Shown here one piece after another: positions 22,617-25,967 of a stretch of 60,403 nt of DNA. Made by a program: the position numbers and the translations under genes. Location: contig JAOZLL010000004.1 in NCBI GenBank assembly GCA_029934835.1, positions 1-60,403 on the forward strand, given 5' to 3'. The notes below the pieces were generated by a model. The model saw only the letters and a list, made by a program, of their open reading frames with translations. It searched no databases and was not told the DNA's origin. This DNA comes from Flavobacteriaceae bacterium. Lineage in GTDB: Bacteria; Bacteroidota; Bacteroidia; Flavobacteriales; Flavobacteriaceae. How positions within the stretch are numbered: the first letter of the stretch is position 1; each line of letters starts with the position of its first letter.

Positions 22617-23657
22617 TTATCTGATTTTTTTAAGTTTTTCTAGATCGATAATATTTATATAAGTTCTATTAGTTTCTACTAATCCATCTTCCCTGAAATC
22701 TGCTAAGGTTCTAATTAAAGTTTCTTTTGCAATGCCCGTTAAGCTTGCTAAATCAGTGCGAGATATAAGAATTTTGTTTAAAGGATTATCTTCTATAACC
22801 ATCAGAAGTATTTTGGCAACACGAGAACGAACAGAACTATATGCCATTTGTAACATCTTATTTTTTATTGAATCTATGTTGTCAGAAATCATCTTTAGAA
22901 GGTCTAAAGCAATATGAGGATTAGAATTAAGAATTTCTCTTACTTCTATTTTATCAATTTTTATAAGCTTTAACTCTTCAAGTGCTTCTGCATTTTCTTT
23001 ATAGGGAAAATCTCCCATAGATGAAGTATAGCCAATAAATTGTCTTTTTTTATATAGGCCAGTAATTAACTCTTTACCACTTTCTGTATTCCTGAAGGTC
23101 TTAACGGTTCCTGATTTTACTAGGAAAACATGATTACTTTTATTTCCTGCGCAGTATAAAGTATCTCCTTTCTCATAGGATGAAATTGGTCTATTACACA
23201 TTGATTCAATTAATTTTTCAAGGTTTTTGAACTTCAAAAGAGATTTATTATTAGGAATAGTGTGGTTTGGTAGAGGATTGTTTAAAGTTCTTTTTTTAAG
23301 CCTGATCTCAATTGCACCTAAGAGTTCAGATTCTGCAAAAGGTTTGGTTAGATAATCATCTGCGCCAAGCTCCATAGCTTTTCTTCTATCTATATGATTA
23401 GTTTTTGCTGTTAAGAATATAAATGGGATTTTTTCACAATTAGTATCTTTAGACAAGATTTTATAAACAGCATAGCCATCTAATTTTGGCATCATAATAT
23501 CACAAACAATCAGATCAGGCAAGTGTTCTTGAGCTTTTTCAACTCCTATTTTACCATTTGATGCTGTGATAACGTCATAGTTGGCAAACTGAAGGATTTC
23601 TGCAGTATTTTCACGGACAATTTTATCATCCTCAATTAATAATAATTGTTTTTTCAT
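22617..23657 (-). CDS. Response regulator with REC, cNMP-binding and Crp-type HTH domains
   Basis: A 346-residue fusion. REC domain (about 1-120) has the acidic pair LIEDDK, the phospho-acceptor Asp in CDIMMPKLDGY, Thr in FLTAKT and Lys in LTKPFA. A cyclic-nucleotide-type beta-roll follows (about 140-255), then a Crp/Fnr winged helix with GIAKETLIRTLADF as recognition helix. It should bind DNA in answer to phosphorylation and perhaps a second ligand. It overlaps the upstream 102-aa ORF by ATGA and is divergent from the curlin gene. No histidine kinase is adjacent. Confidence 0.9.
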   Translation of the reverse strand: MKKQLLLIEDDKIVRENTAEILQFANYDVITASNGKIGVEKAQEHLPDLIVCDIMMPKLDGYAVYKILSKDTNCEKIPFIFLTAKTNHIDRRKAMELGADDYLTKPFAESELLGAIEIRLKKRTLNNPLPNHTIPNNKSLLKFKNLEKLIESMCNRPISSYEKGDTLYCAGNKSNHVFLVKSGTVKTFRNTESGKELITGLYKKRQFIGYTSSMGDFPYKENAEALEELKLIKIDKIEVREILNSNPHIALDLLKMISDNIDSIKNKMLQMAYSSVRSRVAKILLMVIEDNPLNKILISRTDLASLTGIAKETLIRTLADFREDGLVETNRTYINIIDLEKLKKIR

Positions 23658-23962
23658 AATTTAGTAGTGGTATTCATTACCAATAAGCTATTTGATAATA
23701 AGATTTGTGATATTTCTTTTTTTACTGATCTATTTGTTTTTGTCATAAAAGTTAAAGGGGAAAACACTTTATATTTAAAAATATTTTCAAAGAATTTTAG
23801 CAAGACAAATCCTATGTCTCTTTGAGATAGATTATAATAAGATAACCTGAGACACCTTGTAATAACATTAGTTATTATCATTTTTTTTGCAAGACCTTTA
23901 AAAGAAATTGATTCTTTTAAAGACTTGTCAAAAATAATTTTATTCGTACTTATTATTTCCAT
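23654..23962 (-). CDS. Hypothetical 102-aa protein coupled to the response regulator
   Basis: Not a family I recognise. The ORF starts with ATG at 23962 and its TGA stop overlaps the response regulator start as ATGA, which is strong positional evidence for a real, translationally coupled gene. The protein is basic and helical, with no signal peptide or Cys-rich motif (segments such as ISFKGLAKKMIITNVITR and RDIGFVLLKFFENIF). It could be a small partner of the regulator or a remnant of a sensor. Confidence 0.5.
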   Translation of the reverse strand: MEIISTNKIIFDKSLKESISFKGLAKKMIITNVITRCLRLSYYNLSQRDIGFVLLKFFENIFKYKVFSPLTFMTKTNRSVKKEISQILLSNSLLVMNTTTKL

Positions 23963-24038
23963 TGAAGCTAATCCGTTAGTAAAAAATTAGTTCTTTAGGG
24001 AGACTACAAATCTAATAAAAAAACACAAAAGTAACAAA

Positions 24039-24084
24039 TGTTACATATAATAATGATATAACATATTGATATATAGTACTATAT
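24039..24084. promoter_or_regulatory. Two dyad-symmetric sites between regulator and curlin gene
   Basis: The first dyad is TGTTACATAT-n-ATATAACA (about 24039-24063). The second is the perfect 14-bp palindrome ATATAGTACTATAT (24071-24084) inside a longer near-palindrome. Both lie in the 235-bp divergent region and could be operators. A link to the divergent regulator is inferred from position only. Confidence 0.45.
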
Positions 24085-24197
24085 CGTGATTTTGTAACTG
24101 ATTAGGACAACAATCACAAATTGACTTGACGTTGGTCATTGTAGTATTTTTTAAGGTGTAGGATATTTGCCCCATTATTAATCTAAATTATTTTAAA

Positions 24198-25283
24198 ATG
24201 AAAAAATTAAGTTTATTCGCACTATTATTTAGTGTAACAAGTTTTGTGTTTGGACAGTTCAACACAAGTTCAGTATCTTCAGATGGTGTTGGAAATTCTG
24301 CCACTGTTGGACAAACAGGTTTGTCAAATGATTCTGAAATCATTCAAGATGGTCAAATGCATGTTTTGGGAGGTGTAGGAAATTCAGCTACAGTAAACCA
24401 ATTCGGTTCCTTCAATGAGGCAAGTATTGGGTCATTTGGTAATGGTAATTCTGCTGATATTTTTCAAGATGGTTGGGGAAATATGGCATCTCAAACACAA
24501 GGTGTTGGTTGGGCTGAAGATAATGTTGCTTCTGCTGAGCAGTATGGAGTTTTTAATTCATCTACACAATCGCAGTATTATGATAACAATACAGCAGAAG
24601 TATATCAAGTAGGTTTGTGGAATTCTGCTACTCAGTATCAAAGTACCATGAGTAATGGAGCTATGGGTAGTTATGCTTCTGCAATTCAGGTTGGTGAAGG
24701 AAATATTTCTGATCAAAGTCAATTTGGACAAATGAATGCTGCTTATGTAACTCAAGGTGAGTTTTATAATACAGCAACTCAAGTTCAAACAGGGAATTCA
24801 AATTCAGCTACTATTTGGCAAAATGATTTGTCTTTAGGTGGTTATAACGTTGCTTCTCAAAGTCAAGTAGGTGATGATAATGTTGCTATAATTGATCAAG
24901 GTTTATTTTATGCTTATGGAAATTTAGCATCCCAATCTCAAATTGGAAATGAAAACCATGCTTTTGCAATTCAAAAAGGTGCATTTAATGAATCATACCA
25001 ATATCAAGAAGGTGATTTGAATATTTCAGAAACTTCTCAAGATGGTTTAGGGAATGGAAGTGGTACAGCTCAGTTTGGTGTTGAAAATGAGGCTTATACT
25101 AGTCAGATTGGTATCGGTAATGGTAGTGGAGTACTTCAAATTGGTGCTTCAAATTTTTCAGATACAATGCAAATGGGTGATAGTAATTTAAGTGCTACAT
25201 TACAATTTGGAATTGGACATAGTAATACAACTTCACAAACAGGTGCAGGTAACACTGCTCTTGTAGTTCAAGTTGGACCTTAA
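24198..25283 (+). CDS. Curlin-repeat amyloid protein (CsgA/CsgB-like)
   Basis: A 361-residue secreted protein with a signal peptide (ending FVFGQ) and about 28 degenerate half-repeats of roughly 11 residues, with Asn, Ala/Ser, Gln and Gly at fixed spacing (for example GNSATVNQFGSFNEA). This matches curlin repeats, which stack into a beta-solenoid amyloid fibre. The repeat number is far larger than the five 22-residue repeats of E. coli CsgA. A CsgH-like gene follows, but csgE, csgF and csgG are not in the window, so the secretion pore must be elsewhere. Confidence 0.9.
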   Translation: MKKLSLFALLFSVTSFVFGQFNTSSVSSDGVGNSATVGQTGLSNDSEIIQDGQMHVLGGVGNSATVNQFGSFNEASIGSFGNGNSADIFQDGWGNMASQTQGVGWAEDNVASAEQYGVFNSSTQSQYYDNNTAEVYQVGLWNSATQYQSTMSNGAMGSYASAIQVGEGNISDQSQFGQMNAAYVTQGEFYNTATQVQTGNSNSATIWQNDLSLGGYNVASQSQVGDDNVAIIDQGLFYAYGNLASQSQIGNENHAFAIQKGAFNESYQYQEGDLNISETSQDGLGNGSGTAQFGVENEAYTSQIGIGNGSGVLQIGASNFSDTMQMGDSNLSATLQFGIGHSNTTSQTGAGNTALVVQVGP

Positions 25284-25298
25284 TATTTAGAATTAATT

Positions 25299-25332
25299 GA
25301 AGGGAAAGTCGACTAAAATTAGATTTTCCTTT
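25299..25332 (+). terminator. Weak terminator-like hairpin after the curlin gene
   Basis: GAAGGGAAAG pairs imperfectly with ATTTTCCTTT and is followed by CTTTT, 15 bp past the curlin stop. It could reduce transcription into the downstream csgH-like gene, which would give the usual excess of fibre subunit over chaperone. Confidence 0.4.
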
Positions 25333-25493
25333 CTTTTATATAGTATCGGAAATCAATACGCTAAAAAACTACATCTTATTTTATCTCTGATAATAAATCT
25401 ATAATTTTAAATATAGATTTTCTAGAATTCATATTATGCTATTAGTAACAAGATAACATCTTAACATTAGAATTCTTTTAATACAAATTTATC

Positions 25494-25967
25494 ATGAAAA
25501 AAATTTATACTAGTATACAATTCCTGTCATTATTATTATTTATATTCCTAAATTCTTTTGCGCAAAATAGTGAGAAGGTAGAAGCAAAAATTAATATTAT
25601 AAGAACTACAACGAGTATTAGTATTTATGCCATTGCTGAAAACTATTCAACTTTAGCAAAGGATAATTTGATTTTTGAAATTAGTTCAGAAAAAAAATCA
25701 ACAAATGGAAATCTTTCCAGTAGTAAACAAATTGCTAGCTTTTCTATTTTACCTAGTGAGACTAAAGTCTTATCTAAATTAAGATTTAAAACTGAAAAAG
25801 AGAGTAATATTACAATCAATCTCTATATTAAGGACGGAACAAATGTTTTAGATAAAGAATCATATATTATTTCAGGATCTGATATTTTATCAAGGAGAGA
25901 TCTCTTACGTGACAAACGAATAAAAAAGCCCATTATCGAAATTGCTAATAATTCTATTTCAAAATAA
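25494..25967 (+). CDS. CsgH-like curli chaperone candidate
   Basis: A 157-residue secreted protein with a signal peptide (ending NSFAQ). The body is beta-rich and holds the stretch KSTNGNLSSSKQIASFSILP followed by ETKVLSKL, which resembles the strand pattern (sGxss..Q...f.l...E...LS) of CsgH-like proteins that hold curlin monomers in the periplasm. Its position directly after a curlin gene supports this. The assignment is by eye and by context, so another small adhesin-associated protein is possible. Confidence 0.6.
   Translation: MKKIYTSIQFLSLLLFIFLNSFAQNSEKVEAKINIIRTTTSISIYAIAENYSTLAKDNLIFEISSEKKSTNGNLSSSKQIASFSILPSETKVLSKLRFKTEKESNITINLYIKDGTNVLDKESYIISGSDILSRRDLLRDKRIKKPIIEIANNSISK

Follow-up and report, generated by a model that had tools for sequence, protein, structure and literature searches.

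The window analysed here, a 60,403-nt stretch of contig JAOZLL010000004.1 (C166) of a Flavobacteriaceae bacterium, carries a curlin gene followed by a CsgC/CsgH-like gene and, divergent from both, the gene of a response regulator that combines a receiver (REC) domain with Crp-type modules. Gene content and sequence identities mark this locus as a reduced paralogue of the main curli locus (same genome bin, contig C35), namely its regulator-plus-csgA side. We put at roughly two in three the probability that the window provides an auxiliary curlin with its chaperone, which would be co-regulated with the C35 locus and exported by it. We also lean towards a wider proposal, in which the PAS-kinase/REC-CRP system with its tandem operator would govern curli, in the manner of CsgD, in two or more genera of the family, csgA would have been recruited into an older hsp20 stress regulon, and the window would be a kinase-less branch with a further curlin and with a CsgH split from a CsgH–CsgE hand-off chaperone. 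The relevant features of the window are as follows.

22617–23657, minus strand: REC-cNMP-HTH_Crp response regulator, 61% identical to its paralogue on C35 and 70% to its sister on contig C236 of genome G006
23654–23962, minus strand: kinase stub of 102 codons, which starts where the lost PAS histidine kinase gene had its start codon and lacks the kinase core
24105–24138, plus strand: putative tandem FNR-like operator, 34 bases, 59 bases before the curlin ATG
24139–24169, plus strand: putative core promoter, with TTGT abutting the operator and TTTG ending 31 bases past it
24198–25283, plus strand: curlin, 361 residues, signal peptide judged by eye, about 14 repeats
25494–25967, plus strand: CsgC/CsgH-like periplasmic chaperone candidate, 157 residues, counterpart of the CsgH half of a CsgH–CsgE fusion

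The window locus and its counterpart on C35

The three open frames (regulator, curlin, and CsgH-like) were confirmed at these positions, with the regulator divergent from the other two. The frames and domain matches agreed with an earlier description of this DNA made from the letters only (the sequence-only reading), which had noted a regulator of receiver and Crp-type modules opposite a curlin and a CsgH candidate, with no csgG, csgE, or csgF beside them. csgB is also missing beside the curlin, and the window therefore does not hold a complete curli operon. The genome bin is a draft of 2.47 Mb (179 contigs, 88% complete), and the search for csgG, csgE, and csgF that the sequence-only reading had proposed found csgG, csgF, and a CsgH–CsgE fusion on C35. 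The csgG match there (1.2e-60) was the only one in the bin at E 0.01, and curlin-repeat matches at this threshold were confined to C35 and the window.

On C35, the minus strand carries a response regulator and a PAS histidine kinase, and the plus strand carries, in order, csgA (450 residues), a small curlin in the csgB position (145 residues, below the Pfam cut-off), a 244-residue CsgH–CsgE fusion (L010 5626–6360), csgF, csgG, and a lipoprotein gene. In the fusion, the N-terminal part is CsgH-like (1.3e-6, 28.4 of 35 bits) and the C-terminal part matches CsgE (PF10627, 7.7e-13). Gene order and orientation in the window are like those on C35, with amino acid identities of 61% for the regulator, 57% for the curlin, and 40% for the CsgH domain.

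The sequence-only reading had suggested a self-contained, signal-controlled amyloid module that uses a remote secretion pore. The remote pore is plausible from the sequences, with csgG, csgF, and CsgE all on C35. Self-containment would suit the divergent regulator and its own operator, but the kinase, the pore, CsgE, CsgF, and a second curlin are absent from the locus, and the genome's only csgG match is on C35; we regard it as highly improbable. Like the curli systems of E. coli (csgBAC/csgDEFG) and the single csg operons of Bacteroidota, this genome has curlin repeats and homologues of CsgG, CsgE, and CsgF. Unlike them, the window lacks csgB, csgE, csgF, and csgG and has a REC-CRP regulator as neighbor in place of CsgD, and CsgE forms the C-terminal part of a fusion with CsgH both on C35 and in relatives. 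Several csgA/B copies per genome have been reported, with up to six in Spirosoma (PMC3521004) and figures of up to 30 (PMC10192328); such genomes share with this one an extra curlin outside the main operon, but the extra copy of the window is accompanied by its own regulator paralogue and by a chaperone that lacks the CsgE half.

The window curlin matched the curlin repeat family (Curlin_rpt, PF07012) in seven stretches with 85.1 bits against a cut-off of 20.7 (2.9e-24), and remained below the NCBIfam equivalog cut-offs for CsgB (96.8 of 165) and CsgA (49.8 of 160). The mature protein (341 residues, the first 20 having been removed by eye as a signal) contains 37 glutamines, 21 QxG motifs, and 18 QxGxxN motifs. 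Among the 36 steps from one glutamine to the next, 13 are of 11 residues, six of nine, and eight of two. Length and spacing are compatible with about 28 half-repeats (14 repeats), a figure that is not a program count. The claim that this is far more than in enterobacterial CsgA held against E. coli, but the number is ordinary within published ranges of up to 22 repeats (PMC3521004) and of 4 to 62 (PMC10192328). Without the first 20 residues, the net charge of the window curlin is -28 with a single Lys/Arg, compared with -12 and 22 Lys/Arg in the C35 curlin. Four curlins of relatives had net charges of -24 to -39, about as acidic as that of the window, so that the C35 curlin is the outlier.

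Regulator, lost kinase, and tandem operator

The regulator matched the Pfam families Response_reg (4e-28), cNMP_binding (3.2e-17), and HTH_Crp_2 (2e-14), all above their cut-offs; the cNMP-type fold and HTH_Crp place it in the CRP/FNR family. Its receiver has all the response-regulator residues, namely the acidic pair D10-D11, the phosphoacceptor D53, T83, and K105. CRPs that bind cAMP have a Gly-Glu ... Arg signature in the nucleotide pocket; the window regulator has FIGYTSSMGDFPYKENAEA there instead. The window and C35 regulators share the recognition helix core GIAKETLIRTL and a nearly identical receiver helix alpha1. In a tree of 25 regulators, in which the G003 row is a long branch, the window regulator is sister to the G006:C236 regulator (support 100/98), and nine regulators form one clade (100/99), seven of them from the window's genus and two from a neighboring genus.

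Of 80 related database loci, 79 have a kinase gene directly upstream of the regulator. In the window, where no kinase gene adjoins the regulator, the DNA retains the kinase leader and start codon of the G006:C236 copy (77% over 130 bases, up to 23926), and the rest of the gene is gone, which identifies the 102-codon frame as a kinase stub. The stub scored 8.0 bits against the kinase protein (2 of 1000 shuffles scored higher), and it ends overlapping the regulator by four bases, as does the C35 kinase gene. We rejected this frame as an independent gene, since it matched no family and its start, leader, and overlap are all those of the kinase gene. At G006:C236, the kinase still stands in front of the regulator, and across the divide lies a CsgE-like protein without a CsgH half. 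As to signal control, another claim of the sequence-only reading, the receiver is intact but the adjacent kinase is a stub, so a different kinase would have to supply the signal. Because the local kinase is lost, and in view of the nearly identical helix alpha1, we propose that the C35 PAS kinase phosphorylates the window regulator; the window and C35 regulators probably share targets. As a separate observation, a perfect palindrome, GTAACAAATGTTAC, is located at 24034–24047 upstream of the kinase stub and aligns with the TGATAAAAGTCA dyad of the G006:C236 kinase promoter, both arms being altered alike.

Alignment of four csgA promoters revealed two conserved dyads. The site TGAY-N4-RTCA-N10-TGAY-N4-RTCA precedes csgA in all six loci with a divergent regulator, with one mismatch each in the window and in L195 and none in the other four, and the gap from the operator to the ATG is 59–63 bases in all six. 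The operator was absent from all 18 csg loci in which no regulator was seen, where the best match in the 300 bases before the first curlin had 4–7 mismatches, and among 2,400 mononucleotide shuffles drawn from the 24 upstream regions, none produced a site with fewer than three mismatches. This test used one csgA promoter per locus, except for L204, which has no recognised csgA and was represented by its csgB promoter; the second operons of L212 and L214 had five mismatches each. One of the 18 loci, L199, has only 0.7 kb of sequence in front of csgA, so that absence of a regulator is not established there; no site better than five mismatches was found in the 721 bases before its csgA. In nine regulator or csg loci that had not been chosen for their sites, 16 of 17 dyad pairs up to 40 bases apart had the N10 spacing.

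In each of the six promoters, TTGT abuts the operator and a TTTG ends 31 bases past it, an arrangement that would fit the -33/-7 promoter type of Bacteroidota. The class II and class I activator positions of CRP-type regulators lie near -41 and -63. If the TTTG, as the -7 element, ends at about -4, the two dyads would be centred near -41 and -63. The site consensus of the CRP/FNR family is of the TTGAT-N4-ATCAA type, and a cNMP-type fold with HTH_Crp and TGAY-N4-RTCA dyads are common to these regulators and to the one described here, which differs from the usual members in the receiver in front, the kinase partner in relatives, and the two dyads placed 22 bases apart. The co-occurrence of operator and regulator makes the link between regulator and curlin, as assumed in the sequence-only reading, well supported at the sequence level, with the regulator presumably binding the tandem dyad just upstream of the curlin promoter and activating transcription. 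We also considered whether the recognition helix predicts the operator, since regulators with the operator mostly have A(K/R)ET and the others A(T/S/P)E(S/T); this rule was rejected because it is broken by G151, which has ANES.

The shared recognition helix core and operator type, together with a kinase loss at the window only, would also suit an arrangement in which the C35 kinase-regulator pair alone controls the curlin and the window regulator, left unphosphorylated, competes for the operator sites or represses from them. However, the active-site residues of the receiver, which such a competitor would not need, have been kept, and we consider this arrangement quite improbable.

In the seven genomes of the window's genus (G000–G006), exact sites numbered 4, 0, 3, 2, 7, 5, and 12, respectively, and a reversed-motif control gave none in all seven; the one-mismatch site of the window is not counted among the four in G000. 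G001, the only one of these genomes without a site, also had no regulator match at 1e-60, and in G004 a regulator cut by a contig end lies beside two sites. Across the family, 7 of 199 genomes had an exact site (G000 4, G004 7, G031 21, G151 8, G186 4, G053 1, and G060 1), and the reversed control occurred once each in G081, G090, and G143. In G031, G151, and G186, which belong to three further genera (L227, L231, and L232), the kinase-regulator pair is no more than about 2.4 kb away from sites, and beside the regulator an HSP20 gene (Pfam) starts 61, 68, and 61 bases behind a site, respectively. Within the window's genus, G000, G004, and G006 (G004 by likeness only) have HSP20 genes that start 61–63 bases past a site. 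Further genes led by a site encode a universal stress protein (54 bases, G031), a papain-family protease (64 bases in G004 and 65 in G006), and secreted or lipoprotein-like proteins judged by eye. hsp20 was near the regulator in 2 of the 80 database loci, in one of them 2.6 kb away. G151 has both the regulon and a csg operon (L199), the regulator being in the end region of another contig. It thus seems that csgA joined an older stress-type regulon in the lineage that includes the window's genus and the neighboring one.

A 2012 survey gives no CsgD for the curli systems of Bacteroidetes except in Spirosoma and supposes other regulators where csgD is not nearby (PMC3521004). No account of a curli regulator in Bacteroidota was found in the literature as judged by titles and the beginnings of abstracts, subscription papers being mostly outside this scope. 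For the loci described here, a regulator, operator, promoter geometry, and regulon can be named from sequence and are directly testable.

The CsgH-like protein and the CsgH–CsgE fusion

The third window protein matched CsgC (3.1e-4) and CsgH (1.0e-3), both below the curated NCBIfam cut-offs (19.1 of 35 for CsgH, NF041112), and Pfam assigned it no family (best 0.086). No cysteine follows its signal peptide, and the cysteine pattern that separates CsgC-like from CsgH-like proteins is missing; by the definition in PMC4838910, it is a relative that falls outside both the CsgC-like and the CsgH-like group in the strict sense. An AlphaFold2 model from a two-row alignment, with a predicted local distance difference test score (pLDDT) of 67, shows seven strands with an eighth behind them. 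The two best fold matches of this low-confidence model in the PDB were the chaperones CsgH of R. palustris (2n59, 1.0e-4) and CsgC of E. coli (2xsk, 7.3e-4), with query template modelling scores of 0.42 and 0.44; the window protein differs from both in its lack of cysteine and its low NCBIfam scores, and its kin in Flavobacteriaceae are usually fused to CsgE. A single-sequence phmmer search against the PDB yielded nothing stronger than 0.16, the matches being to importins and similar proteins.

A profile built from 24 rows (23 fusions and the window protein) matched CsgE (2na4, 2.8e-9, positions 145–237) and CsgC (2xsk, 7.3e-5, positions 38–117) in the PDB, and the window gene stops near the CsgH/CsgE junction of the fusion. 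A CsgE remnant behind this stop was considered, as the profile match runs past the stop to position 168, and was rejected, as tblastn found nothing there in that frame. The profile matched 85 of 397 family genomes (about a fifth) in 56 of 237 genera, mostly near full length, with G004, matched in the CsgE half only, included among the 85. The fusion therefore seems to be the usual form in Flavobacteriaceae. CsgH relatives in Bacteroidetes have been mentioned before (PMC4838910), and the CsgH half therefore has a precedent; an account of the fusion was not found in the literature judged as above. The fusion would couple an amyloid inhibitor to a pore adaptor and bears on how the curlin is handed over to CsgG.

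Secreted CsgE-like proteins without a CsgH half occur in G004, G005, and G006, some of them in tandem (L101 6138–6650, L104 18179–19501, L148 3110–3637, and L145 2374–2892). These calls rest on our own profile (with Pfam CsgE, 20.8 of 25 in G006 and no match in G004). csgG was not found at 1e-10 in these three genomes, of which G005 is only 56% complete. At L013, CsgE-like frames lie about 9 kb from the regulator.

From the 85 genomes, 20 fusion loci outside the genus were fetched (L195–L214). csgF and csgG follow the fusion in all 20 (in L199 the contig stops within csgG), 19 have a recognised csgA (the exception being L204), a small csgB-type curlin was present in 19 (L212 has a repeat frame of no assigned type there), and a lipoprotein gene in 19 (L199 ends before it). 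L200 has two extra curlins behind the fusion, and L212 and L214 each carry two consecutive operons, the fusion not being recognised in the second operon of L212. The divergent kinase-regulator pair was present in only two of the 20 loci, both from the neighboring genus, and L208 has a different kinase and a 225-residue regulator at the edge of the locus. Conversely, among the 80 database loci of the regulator family, some of them short stretches, only L012 (judged from its length and content to be contig G002:C25) has a csg operon. On C35, CsgG (L010 6791–8146) is extended at its C terminus by a segment that weakly matches an outer-membrane beta-barrel family (PF13505, 2.1e-4, below the cut-off), and the csg operon is closed, as in 19 of the 20 fetched loci, by a lipoprotein-like protein with a carboxypeptidase-regulatory domain (L010 8171–9658), possibly an unnamed curli accessory.

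Role of the window copy

For an auxiliary curlin, we propose the following course. The curlin and the CsgH-type chaperone would enter the periplasm, where CsgH would hold the curlin unfolded; CsgE, as part of the C35 fusion, would then export and anchor it together with CsgG and CsgF, and nucleation would come from the small curlin of C35 or from the fibre. The resulting subunit, acidic and poor in lysine, may be incorporated into the main fibre or alternate with it. The window would in this way illustrate an extra fibre subunit separated from its export apparatus.

Silent differences exceeded amino-acid differences in all three window genes, with proportions of amino-acid (pN) and silent (pS) differences of 0.28/0.56 for the curlin and 0.43/0.73 for CsgH, the fastest-changing of the three, both against C35, and 0.19/0.67 for the regulator against G006:C236; these are rough estimates, with silent sites near saturation. 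The window copy is probably working. A decaying remnant, in other words a duplicate under loss whose three remaining frames yield nothing useful, would account for the kinase stub, the missing CsgE half, the operator mismatch, the faster change of CsgH (pN 0.43), and the lack of a curlin at the sister locus of G006. In contrast, the three frames are intact, the receiver and recognition-helix residues have been kept, silent change prevails in every gene, and the promoter geometry is retained, and we consider decay unlikely.

Several points weigh against an auxiliary curlin. The operator of the window has GGA for TGA in its distal half-site, the losses of the kinase, csgB, and the CsgE half are also compatible with decay, and the near-saturation of silent sites blurs the estimates above. 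A curlin plus a CsgH lacking CsgE was seen in the window only, and G006:C236 has no curlin, so that the module is not conserved as such. That C35 and C166 belong to one organism depends on the binning of a draft genome. Furthermore, a regulator relative (1e-50) was found in 15 of 26 chosen genomes, and 8 of these 15 have no exact site; these eight, together with L199, slightly lower our confidence in the auxiliary-curlin reading.

Some minor observations remain. A further exact operator in the window's genome lies on C41 (L140 4593–4626), 99 bases before the gene of a 127-residue protein, and a search of this genome allowing two mismatches gave a doubtful further site on C50. At two loci, L017 and L090 (the latter with two), exact sites occur with a regulator but have no clear tie to it; they also match the looser TGA-N6-TCA-N10-TGA-N6-TCA. 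A plasmid search using the curlin–CsgH DNA gave no match. In a comparison for an empty site, the xanthine dehydrogenase gene flanking the window locus was present in three relatives, in stretches without the regulator, csg genes, or the H+-pyrophosphatase that comes next in the window, so that gene order differs there.

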